Shown here piece by piece: positions 8,907-55,805 of a stretch of DNA of 64,000 bases. The notes beneath the pieces were generated by a model. It made no database searches. It saw only the letters and a list, made by a program, of their open reading frames with translations, and was not told the DNA's origin. Within the stretch, counting starts at the first letter, position 1. Each line of letters starts with the position of its first letter. Source of the stretch: an uncultured bacterium (GTDB lineage: Bacteria; Cyanobacteriota; Vampirovibrionia; Gastranaerophilales; JAILCC01); the NCBI GenBank assembly GCA_949283935.1, contig CASDUJ010000011.1, positions 1 through 64,000 of the forward strand, read 5' to 3'. Both the position numbers and the translations under genes were made by a program.

Positions 8907-9692
8907 ATGTTTTGGAATAAAATACAAATAAGGTCTAAACTTGTTTTTGGACTTTTTGGAGCTTTAATTGTAAGTTTTTTGTTTTGTTTACCTTCTTTAG
9001 CAGAAATAGCTTTGCCGACGTTAAATGTTGGAATGCAGCCGGTTAATTCTCCGCGAGAATTTTCTCAGGGTGTGCAAATTCTTATACTATTGACTATTTT
9101 AACTTTAGCCCCAAGTATTTTGATAATGACTACTTCTTTTACTAGAATTGTAATTGTACTTGCTTTGACAAGACAAGCAATAGGAACTAATTCATTGCCT
9201 CCATCACAAGTTATTGCAAGTTTGGCTTTGATTTTAACTTTTTTTGTTATGGCTCCTACTTTTAATAAAATTAACGAAACAGCTTTTCAACCATATATGA
9301 ATAACAAAATTACTCAAGAAGAAGCAATTTCCAGAAGCATAACTCCTTTGAGAGATTTTATGTTTAGATATACAGAAGAAAAAGAGCTCGCCCTTTTTGT
9401 AAAAATGGCTAAAATCGAAAAATCGCAAATTAAAGTAAAAGAAGATGTTCCTACTTATATTTTATTGCCAGCTTTTATTATTAGTGAATTAAAAACTGCT
9501 TTTAAAATAGGTTTTATGATTTTTATTCCATTTCTTGTAATTGATATTGTGGTTTCCAGTATTTTAGTGGCAATGGGGATGATGTTTTTGCCACCTTCAA
9601 TTATAGCTACACCTTTTAAGATAATTCTTTTCGTTATGATTGATGGTTGGTATTTAATAACGAAATCGCTCTTGGAAGGCTTTATAGTATAG
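8907..9692 (+). CDS. fliP: Flagellar export gate protein FliP
   Basis: A 261-residue membrane subunit of the flagellar type III export gate, which assembles with FliR and FliQ into the helical pore. The N-terminal signal-like helix (residues 10-33) is characteristic of FliP, followed by ILIMTTSFTRIVIVLALTRQAIGTNSLPPSQVIASLALILTFFVMAP and the C-terminal PFLVIDIVVSSILVAMGMMFLPPSIIATPFKIILFVMIDGW block. An AAGGGGTGG site precedes ATG 8907. It opens the plus-strand export operon fliP-fliQ-fliR-flhB-flhA; fliQ starts 10 bases later. A 175-base leader lies upstream. Confidence 0.97.
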   Translation: MFWNKIQIRSKLVFGLFGALIVSFLFCLPSLAEIALPTLNVGMQPVNSPREFSQGVQILILLTILTLAPSILIMTTSFTRIVIVLALTRQAIGTNSLPPSQVIASLALILTFFVMAPTFNKINETAFQPYMNNKITQEEAISRSITPLRDFMFRYTEEKELALFVKMAKIEKSQIKVKEDVPTYILLPAFIISELKTAFKIGFMIFIPFLVIDIVVSSILVAMGMMFLPPSIIATPFKIILFVMIDGWYLITKSLLEGFIV

Positions 9693-9702
9693 GAGGAGCG
9701 AC

Positions 9703-9969
9703 ATGTCACAAATAGAATTTATTACTATAATACAAAAAATGCTAATGCTTGTTTTAGAATTAATTGCTCCAGTTTTGTTAGTTAGCGTCGTTGTGGGATT
9801 GGCAATAAGTATTTTTCAATCTGTTACACAAATTCAAGAATCAACTTTAACTTTTGTTCCCAAAATTTTTGCTGCATTATTAACTTTAATGCTTTTAATG
9901 CCTTGGATGCTTGAAGTTTACATTACTAGTGTCCAAGATTTGTTTTCTCATTTAAGTAATGTAATATAG
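9703..9969 (+). CDS. fliQ: Flagellar export gate protein FliQ
   Basis: An 88-residue protein with two membrane helices (about 15-38 and 50-75), the standard FliQ length. Family residues visible include ELIAPVLLVSVVVGLAISIFQSVTQIQESTLTFVPKI. Four to five copies surround the FliP/FliR pore in the inner membrane. The AGGAGCG ribosome site lies within the short gap after fliP, and fliR follows after 15 bases, as in most flagellar operons. Confidence 0.97.
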   Translation: MSQIEFITIIQKMLMLVLELIAPVLLVSVVVGLAISIFQSVTQIQESTLTFVPKIFAALLTLMLLMPWMLEVYITSVQDLFSHLSNVI

Positions 9970-9984
9970 AAGGAACATTAAATT

Positions 9985-10779
9985 ATGATGACAGATTTAA
10001 TGCTTATGCTTAGTCCAATTAATTTGATAATTTTTGTTCTGGTTATGGCAAGATTATCAGGAATGATTGCTGCAGCTCCTTTTTTTTCATCTATTCCAAT
10101 GCCAATGCAAGCTAAAGCTATAATTGTTTTTTTGGCAGGATTTATAATGTATCCTGTTGTAGCTGCTACTACTGCAACACCTGTTTTGGGAAATGTTCTT
10201 GATTTGCCTGCTTTGTTAGTTTTAATTACTAAAGAAGTACTGATAGGTGCTCTTATAGGATTTTGTGCAAATTTGATTTTTGTTGGAATACAAATGGCAG
10301 GACAAATTTTGGCAATGCAAATGGGATTGGCTATAAGTGACGTGTTGGATCCAGTTACACAGCAAAATGTACCTGTGTTAGGACAATTTTATATGTTTAT
10401 TGCAAGTTTAACCTTTATTTTCATAAATGGACATGTTTGGTTGTTTTCCAGTATTTATGATAGTTATAAAATTATTCCTTTAAATTACGATTTTGTGTTT
10501 ACAGGTCCCTTAATTGAAAAAATAGTATTTTTTAGTAGCCAAATTTTTAATATAGCATTTGAACTTATAGTTCCAATTTATGCAGTTTTGATTATTACTG
10601 CCATGATTTTAGGCTTGATGTCAAAATCTTTACCTCATATGAATGTTTTTATGGTGGCTTTGCCAATAAAAATATTTATTGGATTGGCTTTAATGTGTAT
10701 GTTTACTATGCAAACTTCTACTTATCTTGCAGGATTGATGGAAACTTTGCTAAAAAATATTGATAATATGTTCTTGTAG
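9985..10779 (+). CDS. fliR: Flagellar export gate protein FliR
   Basis: A 264-residue inner-membrane protein with six predicted helices, the usual FliR size. Recognisable segments are MARLSGMIAAAPFFSSIPMPMQAKAIIVF, LITKEVLIGALIGFCANLIFVGIQMAGQILAMQMGLAISDVLDPVT, and LPHMNVFMVALPIKIFIGLALM near the end. It completes the export pore with FliP and FliQ. GAAGGAA precedes the start; two Met codons stand side by side at 9985 and 9988, and the first was kept. flhB starts eight bases after its stop. Confidence 0.97.
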   Translation: MMTDLMLMLSPINLIIFVLVMARLSGMIAAAPFFSSIPMPMQAKAIIVFLAGFIMYPVVAATTATPVLGNVLDLPALLVLITKEVLIGALIGFCANLIFVGIQMAGQILAMQMGLAISDVLDPVTQQNVPVLGQFYMFIASLTFIFINGHVWLFSSIYDSYKIIPLNYDFVFTGPLIEKIVFFSSQIFNIAFELIVPIYAVLIITAMILGLMSKSLPHMNVFMVALPIKIFIGLALMCMFTMQTSTYLAGLMETLLKNIDNMFL

Positions 10780-10787
10780 GTGAAAAT

Positions 10788-11861
10788 ATGTCAGAAGAAC
10801 GGACAGAAAAAGCGACGCCGAAACGCCAAAAAAAAGCAAGAGATGAAGGTAATGTTGCTAAAAGTCAAGATTTAAATCATGCTCTTGTTCTTTCTATTGC
10901 TTTTGCATTGTTCTATGTTTTTTCAGAACCAATTTTAAATAAGTTACAATTTGCTTTATATCAAACTTTTACGCATTTGCATCCTGAAGAGCTCCCTTCT
11001 TCTGATGTTAGTGGAGTTTTGGCTTTTTATCAAAATATACTTTTTAAAATATTAGTTCCATTTTTTAGTCTTCTTTTTATTTCAGTGGTTTTTGTTATTG
11101 GAATCCAAATGAAAGGGCTTTTCACTTTGTATCCTTTAAAACCAAAACTTGAAAAATTTTCACCAATGAAAATGATGAAAAATCTTATTGATACTTTTAA
11201 TATTTTTAAACCTAAAAAAATGGTGGAATTACTTAAAGCCTTTGTTAAAATAGGTGTTATTAGTATATTTTCTTGGGCTGTTATTGAAAACAGAAAAATT
11301 GAAATTCTTGCTTTATTTGGAGCAGATGTAGAAACGTTTTTTGTAAAATTAGGAGTTATTTTAGCAGAAATAGTTATAAATATTTGTATTGCTCTTTTAA
11401 TTTTGGGTATTTTAGATTGGATTTATCAAAAATATGAATTTGATAAATCACTTAAAATGACAAAACAACAAGTAAAAGATGAAAGAAAAAATGCTGAAGG
11501 TGATCCTAAAATTAAATCTAAAATTCGTTCTATTCAAATGCAAATGGCGGCGTCAAGAATGATGGCGAAAATTCCTGAAGCTGATGTTGTTGTGGCTAAT
11601 CCAACTCATTATGCAGTTGCACTTAAATATGATACATCTAAAGCTCCTGCTCCAATTGTGGTAGCTAAAGGGGTCGATTTAATTGCTTTTAAAATTCGTG
11701 AAGTAGCAGAAAATAATGGAGTTACAGTTGTTGAAAATCCTCCGCTTGCACGAACTTTGTATAAATTAGTTCCGTTAGATGCTATAATACCAGCAGAACT
11801 CTTTGCGGCTGTTGCTGAAGTTTTAGCATTTGTTTATAAGAAAAAAACAGGTAGAATATAA
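10788..11861 (+). CDS. flhB: Flagellar export switch protein FlhB
   Basis: The 357-residue protein is the substrate-specificity switch of the flagellar export gate. The basic N-terminus (EERTEKATPKRQKKARDEGNVAKSQDL), four membrane helices and the cytoplasmic autocleavage site NPTH (N271-P272) are all present; cleavage between Asn and Pro switches export from rod/hook to filament proteins. AGGTGA precedes ATG 10788. Its stop codon overlaps the flhA start by one base, so the two are translationally coupled. Confidence 0.97.
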   Translation: MSEERTEKATPKRQKKARDEGNVAKSQDLNHALVLSIAFALFYVFSEPILNKLQFALYQTFTHLHPEELPSSDVSGVLAFYQNILFKILVPFFSLLFISVVFVIGIQMKGLFTLYPLKPKLEKFSPMKMMKNLIDTFNIFKPKKMVELLKAFVKIGVISIFSWAVIENRKIEILALFGADVETFFVKLGVILAEIVINICIALLILGILDWIYQKYEFDKSLKMTKQQVKDERKNAEGDPKIKSKIRSIQMQMAASRMMAKIPEADVVVANPTHYAVALKYDTSKAPAPIVVAKGVDLIAFKIREVAENNGVTVVENPPLARTLYKLVPLDAIIPAELFAAVAEVLAFVYKKKTGRI

Positions 11862-13975
11862 TGGATTTACGTAAATTATCAAATATGCTAAAAAATAATG
11901 ACATAGTTCTTGCTATAGGCCTAGTTACTATTGTTGCAATGATGATTTTGCCTTTGCCTCCTACTGTTTTAGATTTGTTGTTGACGGTAAATATTTCGCT
12001 TTCTGTTATTATTTTGCTTGTTTGTTTATATACAAAAGAACCACTGGATTATTCTTCTTTCCCCACAATTTTATTGGTTTCTACTCTTTTTAGATTGGGA
12101 TTAAATGTTAGTTCTACAAGATTAATTTTGCTCCATGGACAAGCTGGAGAAGTAATTAATGCTTTTGGCCAATTTGTTGTTGGGGGTAATTATGTTGTAG
12201 GAGTTATAATTTTTGTTATTTTGGTAATTATAAATTTTATGGTAATTACAGGCGGAGCTGGTAGAGTAGCTGAAGTTGCGGCACGTTTTACTTTGGATAG
12301 TATGCCTGGAAAACAATTAAGTATTGACGCTGATTTAAATTCAGGTTTGATTACAGAAGATGAAGCTAAGGCAAGACGGCGCAAAATCGAAAGAGAATCT
12401 GATTTTTACGGAACTATGGATGGTGCAAGCAAATTTGTAAAAGGCGATGCAATGGCAGGTATCATTATTACAGTTATTAATATAGTAGGCGGATTTATTA
12501 TTGGTGTTTGGCAAATGAAAATGGATTTTCTTACAGCTGCTTCAACGTTTACTATTTTAACTGTTGGAGATGGTTTGGTTTCGCAGTTGCCTGCCCTCTT
12601 AATTTCAACTGCTACAGGTCTAATTGTAAGTCGTGCAGGTGGACAAGATAGATCTTTGAGCGCTGACATTGAAAAAGAAATGTTTTCTGATCCCAAAATT
12701 TTATATCTTGTAGCTGGACTTCTTGCAGTTCTTTCCATAGTTCCGGGATTACCTACTATTCCATTTTTGGTTATTGGAGCATTGCTTGGAGGTTTAGCAT
12801 TTTTGATGCAAAAGGAAAATAAAAATCGAATTCTCGAAGAAGAAAATGCTAAAAAGAAACAAGCCCAAGAAGAAAAAGGTTTGAAAAAACGTAAAAAAGC
12901 TTCTAGAGAAGAAGTAATGGAACTTCTTGCTGTTGAACCTATGGAAATAGAAATAGGATATAGATTAGTCCCACTTTTAGATATGGAACAAGGTGGAGAT
13001 CTTTTGGAAAGAATCGCTCAAATTAGAAAGCAAACTGCTTTGGATTATGGAATAGTTCTACCTTCTATAAGAGTTCGTGATAATTTGCAATTATCCCCAA
13101 ATTCTTATCAAATAAAATTAAAAGGTATTCCTGTTGAAACAGGAACTGTTTTTCCTGAGAAATTTCTTGCAATGAATGCAAATAATGATGCCCATAAATT
13201 TGGAATAAAAGGAGTAAGTGCAAAAGAACCAGCTTTTGGTTTGCCAGCTTTGTGGATAGCAGATAAAGATAAGGAATATGCAGAAAGTGTGGGATTTACT
13301 GTAGTAAGCCCTTCGGCTGTTGTTACTACTCATTTATGCGAAATCATTAAAAAGAATATTTCAGATATTCTTACACGAGAAGATACTAAGCAACTTGTTG
13401 AAAATGTTCAAAAAATGTCACCTAGTTTAGTTGAAGATTTATTGAAAGACATGAATTATGCAGAAATTCAAATTATTTTGCAAAATTTGTTAAAAGAACG
13501 TGTAAGCATTAGAGATTTACATACAATTTTAGAAACACTTAGTACTTATGCAAGAATTAACAAAAATTCTGATTTTCTTACAGAACAATGTAGACTTGCA
13601 CTTTCAAGAAATATATGCAAACAAAATTTAGCTGATACTGGCGAATTATTAGCTGTAACACTTTCTCCTGATGTGGAAGGAGCTATTATATCAGGAATAA
13701 GTTCTGATGGACAAAATTTAACATTAGATCCTGCTTTTACTACAGGACTTATTGATGGCTTAAATAATGAAATTGAAAAAGTTATTAAAAACACAGGAAA
13801 TCAACCTGTTATATTATGCAGTGCTCCCATAAGACTTGCTTTTAGAAGACTTATTGAAAGAACTTTTCCGCAAATTGCGGTTATGTCTTACAATGAAATT
13901 TCAACTACTACTAATGCAAAATCTGTTGGAGTAGTAAGAGTTGATGTTCCCAAAATTTCTACTCAAAATAATTAA
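11861..13975 (+). CDS. flhA: Flagellar export gate protein FlhA
   Basis: The 704-residue protein has an N-terminal half with about eight membrane helices and a large cytoplasmic domain that docks chaperone-substrate complexes. True flagellar residues are present: IINFMVITGGAGRVAEVAARF (I124, N125, F126; G134) and TMDGASKF with S190. The FHIPEP-type region (PGKQLSIDADLNSGLITEDEAKARRRK) is intact. It is the last gene of the fliP-flhA operon and ends only two bases from the convergent second gate gene at 13978; no terminator is visible between them. K131 of most family members is Gly here. Confidence 0.96.
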   Translation: MDLRKLSNMLKNNDIVLAIGLVTIVAMMILPLPPTVLDLLLTVNISLSVIILLVCLYTKEPLDYSSFPTILLVSTLFRLGLNVSSTRLILLHGQAGEVINAFGQFVVGGNYVVGVIIFVILVIINFMVITGGAGRVAEVAARFTLDSMPGKQLSIDADLNSGLITEDEAKARRRKIERESDFYGTMDGASKFVKGDAMAGIIITVINIVGGFIIGVWQMKMDFLTAASTFTILTVGDGLVSQLPALLISTATGLIVSRAGGQDRSLSADIEKEMFSDPKILYLVAGLLAVLSIVPGLPTIPFLVIGALLGGLAFLMQKENKNRILEEENAKKKQAQEEKGLKKRKKASREEVMELLAVEPMEIEIGYRLVPLLDMEQGGDLLERIAQIRKQTALDYGIVLPSIRVRDNLQLSPNSYQIKLKGIPVETGTVFPEKFLAMNANNDAHKFGIKGVSAKEPAFGLPALWIADKDKEYAESVGFTVVSPSAVVTTHLCEIIKKNISDILTREDTKQLVENVQKMSPSLVEDLLKDMNYAEIQIILQNLLKERVSIRDLHTILETLSTYARINKNSDFLTEQCRLALSRNICKQNLADTGELLAVTLSPDVEGAIISGISSDGQNLTLDPAFTTGLIDGLNNEIEKVIKNTGNQPVILCSAPIRLAFRRLIERTFPQIAVMSYNEISTTTNAKSVGVVRVDVPKISTQNN

Positions 13976-13977
13976 TT

Positions 13978-16086
13978 TTACATTGAATAATCATAACCTG
14001 ATTCAGATTCTCCTACTGTGTCAACTGCTTCTACCCTAATATCAGTTATTAATTCACTGTAAGAAATAACTACAATAGTTGGAATATGTCTTTCAAGTAA
14101 TTGAAATAAAGGTAATCTAATTCGCGGAGAACAAAGAATTACCGGTTGTTCTCCTACATGTTGATGAGCTCTTATAAGTGTAGATGCAGTAGATTCTATA
14201 AGTTCTTGAACCTGCATAGGATTTAAAAGAAACATTGTTCCAAGTTCAGTTCTTTGGCATGAATCATCAAGAAGTTTTTCCCATTCTTGAGAAAGTGTAA
14301 TAGCATACAAAACGCTATGTTCATTTGCATAATTTAAACAAATTTGACGAGCAAGTGCTGTTCTTAATCTTTCAGAAAGAATATCAGGTTCTTTGGAAAA
14401 TCTTGCATAATCACAAAGTCTTTCAAATACAAAAATAATATCTTTTATTGAAACATTTTCTCTAATAAGATTTACAAAGATTTTTCTTAAATCACTAGTA
14501 GAAATAATTGCAGGTACTAAATCATTTACTAATGTTGGATCTTGAGCTTTAACTAATTCCATTAATTTTAATACATCAGTTTTTGTCATAATTTCGTCAA
14601 CATATTTTTTGACGCAATCTTGTAAATGTGTAACTATTGCATCAGTTGGATCAACCATTGTTAAACCTGCATCTTGAGGAATATCTTGGGGCATTAGCCA
14701 ATATGCTTGAGTTTGATATGTAGGATCTGTTGATGTTATGACATTTTCTGGAGGTGGAAGACCGGCTGCATCCCATTGTTCAGCTATTACCATAAATCTT
14801 CCTGGATAAACTTCTCCTGTAGCTACAGTATTTCCTCTAATTTGAATTAAATATTCATATTGTCCTAAAGCACTACTGTCCATAATACGTATGTTTGGAA
14901 TTATAAAACCTAATTCATCGGTCATCCTTTGCCTTAATGCAGCAATTTTTGCCAAAAGTTGTCCTTCTTGTTCAGGGTCAGCAATAACAATAAGATTAGT
15001 TCCAACTTGTAAACTTAAAATATCAACCCCAAGACGTTCATACATTCTGTTTGGATTAACAAGATTTTGCATATCTTGTTTAACATTTTCGAGTTGTCCT
15101 ATTTGCATTTGTACATCTTGAGAAACAAGCATAGATAAACCTCCTATTGCAATGGCTATACCAAAAATTAAAAATGGAAGCCAAGGTAATCCTGTTATAC
15201 CAGCTGTAAGTGCAATAAAAAGTAAAAAGGCTGAAGCGTAAAATAAACCATAAGGTTTGTTTAAAATTTGAACAAGTAAATCTCGTCCTAAACTTGAACT
15301 GGCTGCAGTTGAGCGTGTCATAACAATACCACTTGAAATAGCCATTAACAAAGAAGGTAATTGAGATGCAAGTCCATCACCTATTGTCAAAATAGTATAT
15401 TTACTTAAAGCATCTGCTAAAGGCATTCCTTGCATTCCCATGCCAACTGCCAAACCTCCAATAATATTAATTGCCACAATAATTATTCCGGCAATTGTAT
15501 CTCCTTTTACAAATTTCATTGCACCATCCATAGAACCAAATAAATTTGATTCTCTTTGTAAATCTTCTCGTTTTGAAACAGCTTCTTCAGGAGAAATTAA
15601 ACCTGCATTAAAATCTGCATCAATAGTCATTTGTTTACCTGGCATAGCATCTAAAGCAAATCTTGCAGCAACTTCTGCAATACGTTCAGCTCCTTTTGTT
15701 ATTACAAGAAATTGCACAATTGTAATAATAAGAAAAATTACTCCCCCTACAACCATATTCCCTGCCGTAACAAATGTTCCAAATGCATGAATAGCTGCAC
15801 CTGCTTCACCTTTTGCAAGAATTAATCTGGTAGATGCAATACTTAATACTAATCTAAACATTGTTCCAATAAGTATAATAGAAGGAAAAGAAGCAAGTTC
15901 AAGAGGTTTTTGAACAAACAAAGAAATCATAAGTAAAACAATACCAAGAGTAATATTAAGAGCTATAGAAAAATCAACCATCCAAGCAGGAAGTTCTACA
16001 AGTAAAATTAAAACAAGTGACAATACAAAAATAGCAAGTATAAACTCACTCATAGGTAATGTAGATAATGTCCCTTGTTTTGCCAT
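13978..16086 (-). CDS. SctV-like (type III secretion) FlhA-family export gate protein
   Basis: The 702-residue protein is full length and aligns residue for residue with FlhA at 11861 over the first 200 positions, yet carries type III secretion SctV signatures: TIVQFLVITKGAERIAEV (V124-Q125-F126; E134) instead of INF and G134, and GSMDGAMKFVKGD (M190) instead of MDGASKF. Multiple membrane helices precede a cytoplasmic domain with YEYLIQIRGNTVATGEVYPGRF. It ends the minus-strand operon that encodes rod, MS-ring and FliH proteins, four bases after fliH. It would form a second nonameric export gate. Calling it SctV-like rests on these positions only; a divergent flagellar FlhA copy remains possible. 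Confidence 0.88.
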   Translation of the reverse strand: MAKQGTLSTLPMSEFILAIFVLSLVLILLVELPAWMVDFSIALNITLGIVLLMISLFVQKPLELASFPSIILIGTMFRLVLSIASTRLILAKGEAGAAIHAFGTFVTAGNMVVGGVIFLIITIVQFLVITKGAERIAEVAARFALDAMPGKQMTIDADFNAGLISPEEAVSKREDLQRESNLFGSMDGAMKFVKGDTIAGIIIVAINIIGGLAVGMGMQGMPLADALSKYTILTIGDGLASQLPSLLMAISSGIVMTRSTAASSSLGRDLLVQILNKPYGLFYASAFLLFIALTAGITGLPWLPFLIFGIAIAIGGLSMLVSQDVQMQIGQLENVKQDMQNLVNPNRMYERLGVDILSLQVGTNLIVIADPEQEGQLLAKIAALRQRMTDELGFIIPNIRIMDSSALGQYEYLIQIRGNTVATGEVYPGRFMVIAEQWDAAGLPPPENVITSTDPTYQTQAYWLMPQDIPQDAGLTMVDPTDAIVTHLQDCVKKYVDEIMTKTDVLKLMELVKAQDPTLVNDLVPAIISTSDLRKIFVNLIRENVSIKDIIFVFERLCDYARFSKEPDILSERLRTALARQICLNYANEHSVLYAITLSQEWEKLLDDSCQRTELGTMFLLNPMQVQELIESTASTLIRAHQHVGEQPVILCSPRIRLPLFQLLERHIPTIVVISYSELITDIRVEAVDTVGESESGYDYSM

Positions 16087-16089
16087 TTA

Positions 16090-16773
16090 TTATAATCCTT
16101 CTTCAAATGCTTTTTTAATTATTTCTAATTGTGACGAAAAAGTTGCATCTATTTGTCCGCTAGTTGTTATAACTTTACAACTTCCTTTTTCTATATTTTC
16201 ATCTGTTTGTATTAACATTTTAGCCTTTTTGTTTTTAAATGCTGCATTTTTTTCCAAATTTTCACTTAAAATTAGTTCATCTGTAGGATTAATTAAAAAA
16301 GTAATTCTATTTTCATCTTCAGATATTTCTTTAATGACATTTGTTGCAATTTCAATTATAGTTTCAGGTTCAAGTTTTACTTGAGCATTTAAAATTTTCT
16401 TGGCTATTTCAATTGCAATTCCAGCAATATCTTTTTTGTAATATTCATAAGCTGCTTCTTTAACTCCAATTATGGAAGTAATAGCTTCTTGTAAATTGGA
16501 TATTTCTTTATTAGCTTTGGCTAGTCCATTTTGAAAACCATCTTTGGCAGCTTGTTCTTTTATAATTTTAGCTTCTTCATGTGCTCTTGAAACTAAACTT
16601 CTATCTTCAATTCTCCTATATCCTCTTCTTCTGTCTCCTCTTCTTCTTTCTTGCCTTTCTGTTACTTCAGAAAGTACATCAAAAATTCCGCTGGTTTGTT
16701 TTTTGGGTTCAGCGTTTTGATGTTTTTGATTTTCATCATTGTTATCGTTGTTCTTTTTCTTTTTTATTATCAT
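16090..16773 (-). CDS. fliH: FliH/SctL-like export ATPase regulator
   Basis: The 227-residue protein matches FliH/SctL stators, which hold the export ATPase at the base of the machine. A charged N-terminus includes a striking Arg-rich stretch (RQERRRGDRRRGYRR, about 41-55), then a helical coiled region (HEEAKIIKEQAAKDGFQNGLAKANKEI), and the C-terminal FliH domain (AIEIAKKILNAQVKLEPETIIEIATNVI ... DENIEKGSCKVITTSGQIDATFSSQLEIIKKAF). It overlaps the upstream gene by four bases and is followed after three bases by the SctV-like gene. No ATPase gene (fliI/sctN) is present here. Confidence 0.82.
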   Translation of the reverse strand: MIIKKKKNNDNNDENQKHQNAEPKKQTSGIFDVLSEVTERQERRRGDRRRGYRRIEDRSLVSRAHEEAKIIKEQAAKDGFQNGLAKANKEISNLQEAITSIIGVKEAAYEYYKKDIAGIAIEIAKKILNAQVKLEPETIIEIATNVIKEISEDENRITFLINPTDELILSENLEKNAAFKNKKAKMLIQTDENIEKGSCKVITTSGQIDATFSSQLEIIKKAFEEGL

Positions 16774-17714
16774 TTGTTGTTAACTTTTTGAGCTGCATAA
16801 TCTACAATGGTATTTGTTAAATCAAGAGAAAATAAATCCTCCTCGTACATTTTACCATCATATATTCGTAACAAAAAGTTCTTAACATTTTTTCTTTCAA
16901 ATTTAATTATTTCTTCAAAATCATTTCTATCTATTTTTTTAATTGCAGTTGTGATTTTAGCAAAAATAGATTCTTTACGTTTTTTTATTTGAACTTGTGG
17001 CATAAAATTATGAAATTTTTCCAAATATTGATTGTATATTACAGGATCTACTAATCTGTCAAGATCGGGTATGTCCATGTATGTTAAAATTTGTCTTTTG
17101 TCATTTTCTCCCAATAATTTTACCATTTTAGTAATTTCATCAGAAGGAAGAGATTTGAAAAATAATGCCATTGTCATAAGTTTTAAATCTTTTTCTTCTT
17201 GTCCTGGAGGAATATCATCCTGGTAATTTTGTTCAACATAATCATGTAAATTAGATTGATTTAATATGTCTTCAACAGATTTGGACAATTTATTTTCATT
17301 GGCTAATTGTTCTATTAAGCTTTTGTATGTGTTATTTACAGCATTTTCGGCTAGCGTTATTATATTATCTTGATTTTGTCCTTGTATTACTCCATTTTTT
17401 GCAGCTTCAAAAATAGCAAAAGCTATTTGTTGTAAAATTGGTTTCCAATATTCTTGGGGTATTTGGTTTTTGTAATTGTCTATTCCTTTATGAAACATCC
17501 ATTCACCTACAAGTTGGCATATCAAAATAGTTTCGTTTTGGTTGTATGAATGTTCTTCATTTCCCAATGCATTTCCTGCAATTTTTATAAATTCATAAAC
17601 TACTTGAGTTACTGTTTTCTTTACTTCTTCAGGTAATTCTGGAGGAAATGCTTCGGCTGCTTGACCTGCAAGAGTTTGTGCAAATTCCTCAATGTTTAAA
17701 TCTTGTGGTATCAT
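16770..17714 (-). CDS. Unrecognised protein at the fliG position
   Basis: The 314-residue protein lies exactly where fliG normally sits, two bases after fliF and overlapping fliH by four. It is acidic and wholly helical, without membrane segments. I cannot see the FliG middle-domain EHPQ motif or the charged C-terminal motor ridge. The C-terminal part (LMTMALFFKSLPSDEITKMVKLLGENDKRQILTYMDIPDLDRL...) has an armadillo-like look compatible with a very divergent FliG. FliF still ends in a FliG-binding-like tail, which supports that role. It could instead be a lineage-specific switch or sorting-platform protein. Confidence 0.7.
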   Translation of the reverse strand: MIPQDLNIEEFAQTLAGQAAEAFPPELPEEVKKTVTQVVYEFIKIAGNALGNEEHSYNQNETILICQLVGEWMFHKGIDNYKNQIPQEYWKPILQQIAFAIFEAAKNGVIQGQNQDNIITLAENAVNNTYKSLIEQLANENKLSKSVEDILNQSNLHDYVEQNYQDDIPPGQEEKDLKLMTMALFFKSLPSDEITKMVKLLGENDKRQILTYMDIPDLDRLVDPVIYNQYLEKFHNFMPQVQIKKRKESIFAKITTAIKKIDRNDFEEIIKFERKNVKNFLLRIYDGKMYEEDLFSLDLTNTIVDYAAQKVNNK

Positions 17715-17716
17715 AA

Positions 17717-19351
17717 TTAATCACTACTTTCTATCCAATTTTTAAGTTGAATAGCAACTTCATCTTCGTTTTCTGCTATAGTTTCTTTTACTTCTTGAGC
17801 TATTTCGTTGTTAACTGAAATTGCAGGAGCTTGTGGAGTTTGTCTGATAGTATTTAATGATTGTTGTAATTGATCTTGTTGAGCTAAAAGTACTTGAGCT
17901 CTTTGATTTACTTCTTTTAATTTATTTTCTTGTTGATTTGTTAGTTTTTTTAATGTTTGAATATCTGATTCTTGTTCGGCTTTTGCGGCTGCTAATTTTC
18001 TACTAAGAATTATCCAACCTATAATTACCATTGCTACTAAAATTACTCCCATTGTCCACCAAGGATTTCCGCTTCCTTCAGGAGCAGGAAGCTTTACTGG
18101 TTTATCACTTGCAAGTGTTGGACGAGTTGAATCTGCAAAAATAATTTCAACATTTGCAGGATCAACTTTAGGACTAGCTGCGGTTGCTATAAGATTTTTT
18201 AGTTCTTCTTGTGTTATCATTTCCGGAATAGCATTATTTTCTATTGTTACTGCAATTGATATATCTTCTACCATTCCAGGTTTTAAATATTCTGATACTT
18301 GTGTTTTTGTTGTTCCATATTGTTTTTCTTGAGCTGTTCTTGAATAACTTCTGTTTTGACTTGTAGTTGCTGCTTGTGGCAATCCACTTGGTAAATATAA
18401 ACTTACGGCATTTGTTATTTGTCCATTTTCATTGTTTTTGTCTCCTAAATTTTCGTTAAATTCTTGTTCGCTTAAAACAACATTCCTATTAGGATCGTAA
18501 ATAACACTGTTGCGTTCCATTGGAACTTGTCTTAAATAAGTACTTACTGTTACTACGTAATTACCTTTGCCTAAAAGTTTATCTAATTGAGTTTGAACTT
18601 TGGCTTTCATGTATTCATCATTTTCTTCAATTTTGGCTAAAGTATCATCATCGGCACTTGCCATACTTGAGTATACATTTCCATTAGTGTCGGTTATTGA
18701 TATATTGTCAGGCTCAAGTCCAGAGACGCTTCCTAAAAGTAAATTTGTAATTGCTCTTATTTTGTCTTTTGATAATTTTTCTCCTACAGGTAAAACTAAT
18801 TGAACAGTTGCTGTGGTTGGTTTTTGTAAAGAAGAAAAGATTGTTGGTTCTGCTATAGAAATAAATACAGATGCATTTTCTATTGGTTTAATTTTTCTTA
18901 TAAGACGAGAAAGTTCTCCATTTATTGCTCTAGCAAGTCGTATTCTTTTGTCATCTTTTGTTGATGTAAAATCACCTTTATCAAAGACTTCAAGCCCTAT
19001 GTTTGCATCTGCAAGACCGCTTTGAACTATTAACAACAAAGCTTGGTCTCTTTGTTTTAGAGTGCTTTTTTCTTTTAATGAAAGAGTTACTTTCGAACCT
19101 GACGTAAGTCTTTGAGTTTGAATTTTATGACGAGCTAAAAGAGCTTCAATTTCAATTATTTTACCAAGATTATCAGATGTAACCAGTTCTACAGTTCCTT
19201 CTATCCTTTTACTGTCGTCTGGATCAACGTTTGTTCCTGCATTTTGAGGATTTGCTATGCTAATTGCAATTATTATAACGACAACAACCGCTATTGCGGC
19301 TCCTATCCCTATCAAAAGATTTTTGTTTTGCAATAATTTTTGAAAATCCAT
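17717..19351 (-). CDS. fliF: Flagellar MS-ring protein FliF
   Basis: The 544-residue protein has an N-terminal membrane helix (about 12-33), ring-building motifs (VTSDNLGKIIEIEALLARHKIQTQ; RLARAINGELSRLIRKIKPIENASVFISIAEP; NISITDTNGNVYSS), a second helix (about 434-456) and a cytoplasmic coiled coil ending in VAIQLKNWIESSD, like the FliG-binding tail of known FliF. It forms the inner-membrane MS ring that houses the export gate. Length is typical. The start at 19351 has an AGGATGAG site about ten bases upstream. It follows fliE by 54 bases. Confidence 0.94.
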   Translation of the reverse strand: MDFQKLLQNKNLLIGIGAAIAVVVVIIIAISIANPQNAGTNVDPDDSKRIEGTVELVTSDNLGKIIEIEALLARHKIQTQRLTSGSKVTLSLKEKSTLKQRDQALLLIVQSGLADANIGLEVFDKGDFTSTKDDKRIRLARAINGELSRLIRKIKPIENASVFISIAEPTIFSSLQKPTTATVQLVLPVGEKLSKDKIRAITNLLLGSVSGLEPDNISITDTNGNVYSSMASADDDTLAKIEENDEYMKAKVQTQLDKLLGKGNYVVTVSTYLRQVPMERNSVIYDPNRNVVLSEQEFNENLGDKNNENGQITNAVSLYLPSGLPQAATTSQNRSYSRTAQEKQYGTTKTQVSEYLKPGMVEDISIAVTIENNAIPEMITQEELKNLIATAASPKVDPANVEIIFADSTRPTLASDKPVKLPAPEGSGNPWWTMGVILVAMVIIGWIILSRKLAAAKAEQESDIQTLKKLTNQQENKLKEVNQRAQVLLAQQDQLQQSLNTIRQTPQAPAISVNNEIAQEVKETIAENEDEVAIQLKNWIESSD

Positions 19352-19405: not shown

Positions 19406-19735
19406 CTACACCTGAATATTCATAATCTTTTCATACGCTTGGACGACTTTTGTTGTGATTTGTGTTGCTATTGTTACGCTCATTTCAGCTTTGTTTATTG
19501 CTGTAATTACATCATGTATGTCTGCTCCGTTACCTGTAAGCATATCTTGCATTGCTGTGTCTGGAGCATTTGCTATTTCATTTAAGTTTTTTGTCATATC
19601 TAGCATTGTTTGAGAAAAAGTTGCAATTTTGTTGTCTGAGTTTAAATTGTCTAATCTCATTGATGGCATATTTGAATTAAGTTTTGAATCACTTATTGAA
19701 CTTATTAAATTTAATTTTGGTACGTGGTTATTCAT
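19406..19735 (-). CDS. fliE: Flagellar hook-basal body protein FliE
   Basis: The 109-residue protein matches FliE, which links the MS ring to the rod and is an early export substrate. The C-terminal block NGADIHDVITAINKAEMSVTIATQITTKVVQAYEKIMNIQV is characteristic; the N-terminal 30 residues are variable and polar. Size is typical. It lies between the lytic transglycosylase (9 bases) and fliF, in the rod-assembly operon. Confidence 0.94.
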   Translation of the reverse strand: MNNHVPKLNLISSISDSKLNSNMPSMRLDNLNSDNKIATFSQTMLDMTKNLNEIANAPDTAMQDMLTGNGADIHDVITAINKAEMSVTIATQITTKVVQAYEKIMNIQV

Positions 19736-19744
19736 AAAACCTCC

Positions 19745-20323
19745 TTACAAATAATTTTTTAAAATGTTTCTAACGTAATTTTGTGTTTCTTTATATGGTG
19801 GAATTCCATTGTGTTTTTTTACCGCATTTGGGCCAGCATTATAAGCAGCAAGTGCTAAAATTTTGTTGCCGTTAAATCTGTCTAGTAAACTTTTTAAATA
19901 TTTTACGCCGCCTTCTATGTTTTGTTCTGGGTTAAATGCATTTGTGACTCCTAATGATTTGGCAGTTGCAGGCATTAATTGCATTAAACCTTGGGCTCCT
20001 GCTTTTGAAATTGCATTTTGATTAAATCCTGATTCTTGCTGAATTAATGCCATAACTAGTTTTGGGTCAATTTTATATTTTTCACAAGCACTTGATACCA
20101 TTCTTTGTATTTGTACTTTTGATAAATTCATTGGTTCTTGTACTTGATATTTAAAATCTGTTGGGGGAATTACTTTTAAAGTTTCTGCAAAAGATTTTTG
20201 GGGTTTGTCTATTTCCAAAGATTTTGTTTTTTGGTCAATCATTATTTCAAGTTCTGATGCTCTTTTTACAGCTGATGCTTGAGAACTTGAATTTATTAAT
20301 CTTTGAATACTTGGACTAAACAT
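19745..20323 (-). CDS. Lytic transglycosylase (SLT domain) of the rod operon
   Basis: The 192-residue protein contains an SLT/family 23 lytic transglycosylase domain from about residue 75: YKIDPKLVMALIQQESGFNQNAISKAGAQGLMQLMPATAKSLG with the catalytic Glu in QQESGF, followed by AYNAGPNAVKKHNGIPPYKETQNYVRNI. It would cut peptidoglycan so the rod can cross the wall. The first 70 residues are polar, and no signal peptide is evident, so export through the flagellar system itself is plausible. It sits between flgC and fliE, taking the place that FlgJ-type muramidases fill elsewhere. Confidence 0.9.
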   Translation of the reverse strand: MFSPSIQRLINSSSQASAVKRASELEIMIDQKTKSLEIDKPQKSFAETLKVIPPTDFKYQVQEPMNLSKVQIQRMVSSACEKYKIDPKLVMALIQQESGFNQNAISKAGAQGLMQLMPATAKSLGVTNAFNPEQNIEGGVKYLKSLLDRFNGNKILALAAYNAGPNAVKKHNGIPPYKETQNYVRNILKNYL

Positions 20324-20361: not shown

Positions 20362-20808
20362 TTAGCTTTTACCCATATCTACTGCTCTTAGGGCCATTGT
20401 TTTTGTTATATTTACAATTGCCATACTAGCTTCATAAGCTCTTGCTGTCATTTGTGCATCTGCCATATCGACAAGAGGGTCAACATTTGATGCCCTTATG
20501 TATCCATTTTGGTCTGCGTCAGGATGTCCCGGCTTATAAATTAAATCTCCGGGGGTTGTATCTTCTACAACTCCATTAAAAACGACGCCTCCACCTGTAA
20601 AAGGTACTGTACCACTTTGAAAAACGCTGTCTTTCATATAACTCATTAAGCCGGAAAATGAAATATCATCTTGAGAAATTAATACAGGAATTTTTCTCAC
20701 GTAATTAGGTGTGTCTAGGTTTGCAATATTTTTTGCGTGAATGTCCATTCTTTTTGCGTGAGCATCCATTCCTTGTGCGCCTATGTTGTATGATCCTAAT
20801 AAACCCAT
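20362..20808 (-). CDS. flgC: Flagellar basal-body rod protein FlgC
   Basis: The 148-residue protein has the N-terminal rod motif (AKRMDIHAKNIANLDTPNYVRKIP) and the conserved FlgC C-terminus SNVDPLVDMADAQMTARAYEASMAIVNITKTMALRAVDMGK. It forms part of the proximal rod with FlgB. Length is normal. It starts two bases after flgB, and the transglycosylase gene follows after 38 bases. Confidence 0.96.
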   Translation of the reverse strand: MGLLGSYNIGAQGMDAHAKRMDIHAKNIANLDTPNYVRKIPVLISQDDISFSGLMSYMKDSVFQSGTVPFTGGGVVFNGVVEDTTPGDLIYKPGHPDADQNGYIRASNVDPLVDMADAQMTARAYEASMAIVNITKTMALRAVDMGKS

Positions 20809-20810
20809 AA

Positions 20811-21158
20811 TTATTTACCTACATTTGTAACTGTTCTTATTTGTGTTATAACACTTGACATTCTTCTTGTTGCAACAGCATAAAACATTGAATTTTTTTG
20901 CATTTCAATTAGTTCTTTCTTTAAATCAACAGGTTCTCCTTCTTGTAAAAAAAACGGATTTGGTCCTATTTTTTCACTTAATTCTGTTTCAAGGGGGCTG
21001 TTTGCTGTTGCTAAAATTTGATTGAAACTTACATCTCTTCTAACATAGCCCGGAGTATTAGCATTAGTAACATTTGCTGCCATTACTTCTTGTTTTTTAG
21101 ATATGGCATCTAATATTACTTGAGATTTGTCTATTGGGCTAAGTTTATCAAAATTCAT
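20811..21158 (-). CDS. flgB: Flagellar basal-body rod protein FlgB
   Basis: The 115-residue protein shows the rod signature QEVMAANVTNANTPGYVRRDVSFNQIL and the C-terminal helix EMQKNSMFYAVATRRMSSVITQIRTVTNVGK. FlgB, FlgC and FlgF/G polymerise into the rod after export. It lies 13 bases after the upstream rod gene and is followed by flgC. A GGAGGG site precedes the start at 21158. Confidence 0.95.
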   Translation of the reverse strand: MNFDKLSPIDKSQVILDAISKKQEVMAANVTNANTPGYVRRDVSFNQILATANSPLETELSEKIGPNPFFLQEGEPVDLKKELIEMQKNSMFYAVATRRMSSVITQIRTVTNVGK

Positions 21159-21171
21159 TTAACCCTCCTTT

Positions 21172-21885
21172 CTATTGTTCTAAGCTTATTGCTTGTTGAT
21201 AAATTTCGTTTGTTAGCTTTATTATACTAGTGCTTGCTGTAAGACTAGCGTTAAGTCTTAATGTTTCGTTTACAGCGTCGTACCAATTAAAATTTGACCG
21301 CTCAAGTCCATATTGCGTAAAAGCTGTGTGATTTGATACTAAAATTGGCTTGCCCGATTCTTCAGTTTCATAAACTTTATTGAAATCACCTTGTTCTAAA
21401 CCTTCGTAATTGTTAAATTTTACCAGAGGAAGTTTTCCTATTTCTATTCCTTCAAGATGCTTAGGGTCATAGCTAATAATTTTACCTTCTGGAGTAATTC
21501 TAATTTTGGTTGATTCTGTCGGAACTTTTATTCCTGAACCAATTACTGAGCCATCTCCCATTACTAAAAGTCCTTCGTTTGTAGTTTTCATCGAAAGATT
21601 TCTTGTGTAAGCTATTTTACCTTCTCTTGTTGTAACCGGAACAAAACCTTGGCCTTCTATTGCAACGTCTAATTCTCTGTTTGTTTTGTAAAAACTACCT
21701 TGAGAGTAATCATATCTTTCTGTCCCCGCTATTCTTCCGTCAGCTAATACATAAGTGTCGAAACGTGGAGTTTTGTAAGCATCAGTTGTGTAATTGGCTG
21801 CACTTCCAGTTATTACACCAAGCTTTTCCATTTGTACTTTGGCATTATTTACAGATTTTGAAATTATTCCTTGCAAGTTATTCAT
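21172..21885 (-). CDS. FlgF/FlgG-family rod protein
   Basis: The 237-residue protein belongs to the flagellar basal body rod FlgFG family: ELDVAIEGQGFVPVTTREGKIAYTRNLSMKTTNEGLLVMGDG is the diagnostic core. The N-terminus (ITGSAANYTTDAYKTPRF) is a degenerate form of the usual N-A-x-N-x-x-T-x-G-Y/F motif, and the C-terminus NASLTASTSIIKLTNEIYQQAISLEQ replaces the ordinary ending, so it is a diverged rod protein. Which of FlgF or FlgG it equals is unclear. It is 15 bases after the first gene of the operon. Confidence 0.85.
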   Translation of the reverse strand: MNNLQGIISKSVNNAKVQMEKLGVITGSAANYTTDAYKTPRFDTYVLADGRIAGTERYDYSQGSFYKTNRELDVAIEGQGFVPVTTREGKIAYTRNLSMKTTNEGLLVMGDGSVIGSGIKVPTESTKIRITPEGKIISYDPKHLEGIEIGKLPLVKFNNYEGLEQGDFNKVYETEESGKPILVSNHTAFTQYGLERSNFNWYDAVNETLRLNASLTASTSIIKLTNEIYQQAISLEQ

Positions 21886-21900
21886 ATATTTACCTCATGT

Positions 21901-22599
21901 TTAAGAAGTTTGGCTTAGGGATTGAATAGTTTTGTTTAGCATATTGTTTTGTGTTATAAACATTTGACGATTTGCTTGAAAATTTCTTTTCATTGGAACT
22001 AATTCAAAAATTTCAGTTTCTGAACGAACATTAGAACTTTCTATATATCCTTGTCTAACATCTGTTTCATCTGATATTTGTCCTTCTTTGTCAACAATTC
22101 CCAGACTTGCTATGTATTCCATTTTTCCATTTTTTTTGTTAAATACTTCAATATCTCCAGAAGTGTTTATTTTCACATTTTTTATGTCATCAGGTATATT
22201 GCTAAATCTAATAGGGGAACCATCTTTTGATAAAACTTTGTAGTTTTCGTTTGTTAATAAATATCCCTCTTTATCCATTCTAAAACGACCGTCTCGTGTT
22301 AGTTTTATTCCGTTCGGAGTTTCGTATTGAAAATATCCTTTCTTGGCTAATGCTAAATCTAAAGTGTGTCCTGTTGAATAAATTCTGCCAACAGAATCAT
22401 CTACAACGGTTGAAAGTCCGTGCACTCCAATGTATTCTGAAAAACTTGAAACAACATTTTCTATACGTTGATATCCAGGTTTATCAAATCCTGTAATGTT
22501 TTGAGCTATGTTATTAATTTGAGAGGTTTGCATATGCATGCCTCTAATCGAAGTGCTTAAACCTCTTTGATCAAAATAAATTCCGCCAAAAAACTTCAT
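21901..22599 (-). CDS. FlgF/FlgG-family rod protein, first gene of the rod operon
   Basis: A flagellar rod protein of about 232 residues: GMHMQTSQINNIAQNITGFDKPGYQRIE is the rod N-terminal motif; TLDLALAKKGYFQYETPNGIKLTRDGRFRMDKEGYLLT is the FlgFG core; and the C-terminus (VRQGYIESSNVRSETEIFELVPMKRNFQANRQMF) is the standard rod/hook ending. I place the start at ATG 22599, which has GGAG eight bases upstream; a TTG at 22620 would add seven residues but lacks a ribosome site. A sigma-28-like promoter lies at 22639-22665. Confidence 0.9.
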   Translation of the reverse strand: MKFFGGIYFDQRGLSTSIRGMHMQTSQINNIAQNITGFDKPGYQRIENVVSSFSEYIGVHGLSTVVDDSVGRIYSTGHTLDLALAKKGYFQYETPNGIKLTRDGRFRMDKEGYLLTNENYKVLSKDGSPIRFSNIPDDIKNVKINTSGDIEVFNKKNGKMEYIASLGIVDKEGQISDETDVRQGYIESSNVRSETEIFELVPMKRNFQANRQMFITQNNMLNKTIQSLSQTS

Positions 22600-22638
22600 A
22601 TCTTCTTCTCCGTTTTGCAAAACTTCTTTGTATTTGTG

Positions 22639-54953: not shown

Positions 54954-55805
54954 TTAGCCCAACAAAGATAATGCAATTGATGGATTTGAATTTGCTTGAG
55001 CAAGTAATGTAGCTGAGCTTTGTTGTAATATTTGTTGTTTTGTTAACTCAGCAGCCTCCTTAGCAATATCTGCATCCCTGAGTTCTGATAATGATGCGGA
55101 TAGGTTTTCGCTCTTTATTAATAAACTGTCCATTGTTGATTCAAGTCTGTTTTGGTATGCGCCAATTTTTGATCTGGCTGAGGATACCTTATCTATTGCT
55201 TCATCAATTGTTGAAATAAAGTCAGAAGATAGTTGAGCTGAAGAAAATGCTGCATCAATACCAGTTTTGCTAAATTGATCACTAAGTGCAGTTGCAGTCA
55301 TTTTAATTAAAGCATCGCTAATGTCTAGTCTATTATCAACACCAGAATTAGCTCCTATTTGAAGAACAAGGCCAGTGTTGTTGTCGGAACTTAATAAAGG
55401 TATATCACTAAATTGAGATACATTAGCTAATCTTGTAATTTCTTCAAAGCGAGCTTGTACTTCGTTTTCAATCATTGCACGTTCTGCAGTGGAATAAGTT
55501 CCATTTGCTGCTTGAACTGCTAAGTCTCTAATTCTTTGAAGATGATCTTGAATAACTGACATATCTCCTTCTGCAGTTTGAAGAAGATTGATACCATGTT
55601 GAGTGTTTTCTTGAGCTACTTCGGTTCCATTGACTTGAGACAACATATTTTCGGCAATGGAAAGTCCTGCAGCATCATCTGCGGCTCTGTTGATTTTGAA
55701 ACCTGTTGACAGACGTTCGATGGCTTTGCTTACACCTGCATTGGCAGTGTTTAAATTTCTTTGTACCATCAATGAAGTAACGTTAGTGTTTACTACAATG
55801 CTCAT
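54954..55805 (-). CDS. fliC: Flagellin
   Basis: The 283-residue filament protein has the conserved D0/D1 ends only: MSIVVNTNVTSLMVQRNLNTANAGVSKAIERLSTGFKINRAADDAAGLSIAENM and IGAYQNRLESTMDSLLIKSENLSASLSELRDADIAKEAAELTKQQILQQSSATLLAQANSNPSIALSLLG. The variable D2/D3 region is nearly absent, so the filament would be thin and plain. AAGGAG precedes ATG 55805. A sigma-28-like promoter and an 8-base UTR hairpin lie upstream. It is the only flagellin in the window and it stands apart from the basal-body locus by about 32 kb. Confidence 0.97.
   Translation of the reverse strand: MSIVVNTNVTSLMVQRNLNTANAGVSKAIERLSTGFKINRAADDAAGLSIAENMLSQVNGTEVAQENTQHGINLLQTAEGDMSVIQDHLQRIRDLAVQAANGTYSTAERAMIENEVQARFEEITRLANVSQFSDIPLLSSDNNTGLVLQIGANSGVDNRLDISDALIKMTATALSDQFSKTGIDAAFSSAQLSSDFISTIDEAIDKVSSARSKIGAYQNRLESTMDSLLIKSENLSASLSELRDADIAKEAAELTKQQILQQSSATLLAQANSNPSIALSLLG

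Follow-up and report, generated by a model that had tools for sequence, protein, structure and literature searches.

A second, flagellin-free gene set with its own FlhA gate in Gastranaerophilales, probably a flagellum-derived type III export machine

The bacterial flagellum (FlhA/FlhB) is, by sequence, the described system nearest to the gene set reported here, and shares with it the operon order fliE-fliF-[X]-fliH; unlike it, the present set has no filament, junction, rings or FliM, and its gate falls below the cut-off of the flagellar FlhA model. The injectisome (NF-T3SS; SctV/SctU) resembles the set by homology of its gate, pore, ATPase and SctQ-like platform and shares residue M190 of the gate; unlike it, the present set branches separately in trees, includes flagellar rod proteins and has the full FliF architecture. 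The non-flagellar T3SS of Myxococcales, devoid of secretin and needle (Abby and Rocha 2012, PMC3459982), is likewise flagellum-derived, without flagellin, FliG or FlgH, and is like the present set in having no known outer-membrane channel. It lacks FlgB, FlgC and FliE and belongs to the injectisome lineage, whereas the present set keeps rod and FliE and has a gate outside SctV. The basal bodies of Buchnera, without filament or motor (PMC8109811), have also lost flagellin and are a suspected exporter; however, Buchnera retains flgH, and often flgD/E/K, in a reduced form of its only flagellum, whereas the genes described here are separate paralogues without FlgH/FlgI, which many relatives carry in addition to a full flagellum. 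Thirteen flagellum-related genes were found common to the first Melainabacteria genomes: flgG, flgG, flgC, fliF, fliH, flhA, fliI, flgE, a second flhA, fliP, fliQ, fliR and flhB (Di Rienzi 2013, PMC3787301). Genome MEL.A1, without filament, junction and rings, was read there as a case of genome reduction. Going solely by gene names and order, two flhA included, these 13 genes would be the second set described below. A search of open-licence papers found none describing a separate type III system in Gastranaerophilales.

The window is a stretch of 64,000 nucleotides, positions 1 to 64,000 of contig CASDUJ010000011.1 (C11), in a Gastranaerophilales genome of 1.73 Mb and 42 contigs. Its assignment to Candidatus Gastranaerophilales (class Vampirovibrionia/Melainabacteria, Cyanobacteriota) comes from named FlhA2 relatives. 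A sequence-only reading had described two complete FlhA-family genes in it, tail to tail and two bases apart, aligning without gaps over their first 200 residues. Profile search identifies both as complete FHIPEP proteins, and the alignment is gap-free through residue 200 and well beyond; identity is only 38% over 693 columns, and neither is therefore a recent duplicate of the other. The plus-strand gene, flhA1 (11861-13975, +; 704 aa), is the ordinary flagellar gate and lies outside the second set; it ends the fliP-fliR-flhB-flhA run of the ordinary flagellum, after fliP1, fliR1 and flhB1 (8907-11861, +). The minus-strand gene, flhA2 (13978-16086, -; 702 aa), is the candidate gate of a second machine and ends a run whose operon context, with fliF, fliE and rod genes, had been recognised correctly. 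All on the minus strand, this run begins with flgF/G-like rod genes b (21901-22620) and a (21172-21885), both above the TIGR03506 cut-off. The proximal rod genes follow: flgB2 (20811-21158; TIGR01396, 63.1 bits, above cut-off) and flgC2 (20362-20808; TIGR01395, 99.9 bits, slightly below cut-off). Next is an SLT lytic transglycosylase (19745-20323; PF01464, 125 bits), which adjoins fliE2 in some relatives also and probably opens peptidoglycan for the rod. The MS ring-rod junction gene fliE2 (19406-19735; TIGR00205, 57.7 bits, above cut-off) precedes fliF2 (17717-19351), encoding a divergent MS-ring protein (PF01514 and PF08345; TIGR00206, 114 bits, below the cut-off of 129.75). Between fliF2 and fliH2, at the position of FliG, lies X314 (16770-17714), an all-helical protein with no family match. 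The ATPase stator/regulator gene fliH2 (16090-16773; PF02108, 67 bits) stands beside flhA2, as in relatives. FliE, FlgB and FlgC, the absence of which is a criterion for the injectisome, are thus all encoded in the flhA2 operon. Secretin (SctC), SctD, needle (SctF) and translocon were not identified among the annotated genes of the second-set loci read.

FlhA2 belongs to the FlhA/SctV superfamily (PF00771 above gathering score, full length, 718 bits, residues 2-656/657). It scores 585.8 bits against the SctV model TIGR01399 (cut-off 692.25) and 690.5 bits against the flagellar FlhA model TIGR01398 (cut-off 772.1), the latter being exceeded by FlhA1 with 872.6 bits. In a tree of 56 FlhA and SctV rows (LG+C20, careful mode), the FlhA2 sequences of Gastranaerophilales and of further families in the class group together as one clade (100/100), which joins flagellar FlhA at its base (95/91); SctV is apart (100/100). 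FlhA1 groups with flagellar FlhA, and a constraint placing FlhA1 and FlhA2 in one clade is not rejected (p-AU 0.106). Tree position and HMM scores rule out taking the second gate for an SctV. The residues behind the earlier SctV-like reading are all as quoted (INF/VQF, G134/E134, S190/M190), of which only M190 is truly SctV-like: it occurs in 14/14 Gastranaerophilales-type FlhA2 rows and 6/6 SctV rows, serine being present in nearly all flagellar rows and, within the FlhA2 clade, in the f10-f12 branch. Q125 is found in 13 of 18 ordinary flagellar FlhAs and E134 in 4 of 18. At the seven columns separating flagellar FlhA from SctV, FlhA2 agrees with SctV at three, with flagellar FlhA at two and with neither at two; diagnostic residues are therefore undecisive.

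Genome-wide profile searches gave two fliP (C11, C40), two flhB (C11, C23), two fliF (C27, C11) and three FHIPEP loci. The earlier statement that a second fliPQR/flhB is missing is true of the window only. On contig C40 are fliN/SctQ-like, fliO, fliP and fliQ genes, followed by one for a small protein and by fliR; the second flhB, on C23, adjoins a sigma factor. A short hook-like gene accompanies fliJ and a FliK-like gene on C38, and the second fliI occupies C11:68006-69352. The second set, scattered over about five small loci, consists of FliE, FliF, X314, FliHIJ, FlhAB, FliOPQR, FliN/SctQ-like, FlgB, FlgC, two FlgF/G-like, short hook-like, FliK-like and PF13629-like proteins and, in this genome, the lytic transglycosylase. 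It has its own FlhA, FlhB, FliPQR, FliF, FliHI and rod, as looked for in a flagellum-derived export machine. FlhA2 is probably, from comparison of sequences, the gate of such a machine, one no longer building a flagellum.

The same genome has an ordinary flagellum, complete for the parts sought (FlgD/E/F/G/H/I/K/L, FliG, FliK, FliL, FliM, FliN and flagellins), with a canonical flgB-flgC-fliE-fliF-fliG-fliH-fliI run on contig C27. Six flagellin-family matches are present, one of them probably FlgL; a flagellin gene (PF00669, 124.7 bits) stands 39 kb away from the two FlhA genes, within the window at 54954-55805 (-). The sigma-70-like factor beside flhB2, in which only region 4 is recognised, occurs here (L014:11795-12460) and in flagellin-less relatives (L288:6830-7492), and is a possible dedicated regulator. 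The small protein between fliQ2 and fliR2 is apparently exported (L006:7915-8280; L276:8492-8860; L282:2990-3370). It matches PF13629 (T2SS-T3SS pilus/secretin N-terminal region) above cut-off in one orthologue and weakly in two, a sequence hint of an outer-membrane partner. The third FHIPEP match is a soluble protein with the FlhA cytoplasmic domain at its end (L003:1114-2571; G000 C28:9101-10141; PF00771, 158 bits), with no membrane part and apparently near-universal in the order. It may serve the second machine as a free domain for docking or chaperone binding. In genome G171 a 289-aa FlhA_C-like ORF directly adjoins flhA2 (L252:6998-7867).

Distribution of FHIPEP proteins and flagellin was surveyed over 146 Gastranaerophilales genomes. 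By FHIPEP score the full-length proteins separate into two classes, at about 860-890 and about 715-736 bits, beside the soluble third near 158 bits. The high-scoring class, FlhA1, is present in 51 genomes, every one of which has flagellin (Fisher p 3e-36); flagellin is present in 54 genomes altogether. By best E-values, a full-length FlhA2-type gene is present in 90 of the 92 flagellin-less genomes, the exceptions being G044 and G121. Nine flagellin-less genomes were read directly: FlhA2 is 76-79% identical to that of the window and stands in the order fliE-fliF-X314-fliH-flhA, a run found also in contigs of named relatives, with fliI next in two. The second set is flagellin-free and, as gene content indicates, kept in Gastranaerophilales with or without a flagellum. 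That the second gate serves something besides the ordinary flagellum, as had been supposed, is borne out by retention of its operon without flagellin, P/L rings, hook-filament junction and FliM. Genomes G096 and G127 have nine and five FHIPEP matches, above most relatives. Record L035 (ONVC01000010.1), titled 'uncultured Acinetobacter sp.', holds a Gastranaerophilales FlhA2 operon (78% identity), and its title looks wrong. A conserved protein of about 1,480-1,500 aa is encoded near flhA2, usually convergently, in several flagellin-less genomes (L155:11282-15739, similar in L157-L161), with no Pfam match in the one copy tested.

Among the alternatives, that of a second flagellum comparable to lateral flagella, or of an alternative flagellar gate, agrees with the flagellar kind of every recognised part and with the presence of hook-like and FliK-like proteins. 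The flagellin-less carriers speak against it. A concatenated query of FlgI, FlgH, FlgK, FliM, FlgL, FlgD, FliN, FlgE and FliL matched strongly in two flagellated controls; in 18 flagellin-less genomes FlgH/I/K/L/D, FliM and FliL are absent, any weak matches being explained by the FlgF/G-like and FliN-like proteins. Flagellin, FlgK/L, FlgH/I and FliM, the marks of a flagellum, are thus lacking in the flagellin-less carriers tested, and canonical FliG, among the matches listed, occurs only in two flagellated genomes. A second flagellum is accordingly improbable, and loss of rotation would follow from the missing FliG and FliM.

The end of FliF at its C-terminus normally binds FliG. In all Gastranaerophilales copies compared, FliF2 ends in [KR][SN]WIE, and X314 orthologues occupy the same position in all Gastranaerophilales loci holding that stretch. 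The AF2 model of X314 is all-helical (pLDDT 82.6). It matched no PDB fold with E <= 0.001; its sequence gave no meaningful match among PDB chains and a weak match to the FliG N-domain profile (probability 23%). Our guess is that X314 may replace FliG as adaptor on FliF2.

Assembly and working steps of the preferred export machine can be outlined by analogy with homologous machines. FlhA2 and FlhB2 would sit with FliPQR2 inside the FliF2 ring, with X314 as FliG stand-in on FliF2. FliH2/I2/J2 and the FliN-like platform would deliver substrates, and export would be driven by ATPase and proton. The transglycosylase would open peptidoglycan, letting the machine export its own rod and a short hook-like tube across it; FliK2 and FlhB2 would then switch it to late, non-flagellin substrates. 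Export function is deduced from homology, since the analysis identified neither a substrate nor a needle, translocon or outer-membrane channel; protein export past the inner membrane without motility is the most likely function. A non-secretory scaffold or conduit derived from the flagellar core complex, of the kind of membrane nanotubes or the hat-shaped inner-membrane structure (PMC9380563), would accord with the absence of known substrates here and with the ability of core export genes to serve non-flagellar structures (PMC9380563). The ATPase, together with rod, hook-like and FliK-like genes that are conserved, exceeds a bare core complex, and such a scaffold is unlikely.

The published reading of these genes, as remnants of a flagellum under loss (Soo 2014, PMC4040986; Di Rienzi 2013, PMC3787301, for MEL.A1), takes account of the absence of flagellin, ring and hook-filament genes in most of the order and of the resemblance of the retained genes to basal-body genes. 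It is very unlikely, in that the retained genes are not the flagellar set itself but its paralogues, occur together with it in flagellated genomes and form a complete set, conserved in order, in 11/11 flagellin-less genomes. A concatenated query found FlhB2, FliP2, FliR2, FliN-like, FliI2, hook-like, FlgC2 and both FlgF/G-like proteins in every one of the 11. Identities are 63-69% for FlhB2, 64-69% for FliP2, 44-49% for FliR2, 53-64% for FlgC2 and 54-59% for the hook-like protein; FliI2, where read, is 75-80% identical to the copy of the window genome. Gene orders kept in the loci fetched are flgF/G-flgF/G-flgB-flgC, fliN-fliO-P-Q(-X)-R and fliJ-fliK-like-hook. Pairwise dN/dS of FlhA2, also at variance with remnants, is 0.01-0.08 among close relatives, flagellin-less included; for the window against one flagellin-less genome it is 0.16, at a dS near 1. 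Purifying selection on FlhA2 is strong.

An SctV-like or switchable hybrid gate alternating with FlhA1 on one common FliPQR pore, as first proposed, has in its favour M190 and a few other SctV-type residues, the adjacency of the two genes here and the failure of FlhA2 to reach either NCBIfam cut-off. It is extremely improbable: pore sharing is unnecessary, a second fliOPQR and flhB being present here and in every flagellin-less relative tested; FlhA2 is retained where FlhA1 is absent and lies outside the SctV clade; and the tail-to-tail neighbourhood, not found in relatives whose loci were compared, is peculiar to this genome.

In its tree FlhB2 is sister to the flagellar FlhB of the class (94/81), far from SctU; FliI2 groups with FliI of family f12 (100/99). 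The second set of export genes probably arose, to judge from these trees, from flagellar export genes of the class itself, by an ancient duplication with rapid change thereafter; many lineages then probably lost the flagellum proper. The FlhA and FlhB trees disagree in detail: FlhA2 stands at the base of flagellar FlhA, whereas FlhB2 is nested with the flagellar FlhB of the class. The FlhA tree alone is no proof of duplication, and a deeper origin is possible because the second-set clades have long stems. In the wider class, families f9, f14 and f15 have FlhA2-clade genes alongside flagellar markers, FlhA1 itself being read in f9. In 15 genomes of f11 and f12 an FlhA2-clade gate is present, and FlgI, FliG, flagellin, FliM and FlgK are all lacking. 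Family f10 (Caenarcanales; L206-L213, L249) is flagellated, with an FlhA2-clade gate and a second FHIPEP match.

More tentatively, with slightly less than even confidence, the export machine would represent a further, independent conversion of flagellum to protein secretion, apart from the injectisome lineage: a machine with rod and short hook-like tube retained, near-universal in this gut order and exporting proteins toward neighbours or the animal host. Gut Melainabacteria have been called flagellated, or flagellum-losing, on the strength of these genes. If they encode a separate export machine, motility predictions for Gastranaerophilales need revision, and another natural case of a flagellum turned secretion machine is at hand, with close relatives carrying both. 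Genes long taken for leftovers of a broken flagellum look, as far as sequence can tell, like a separate working machine.
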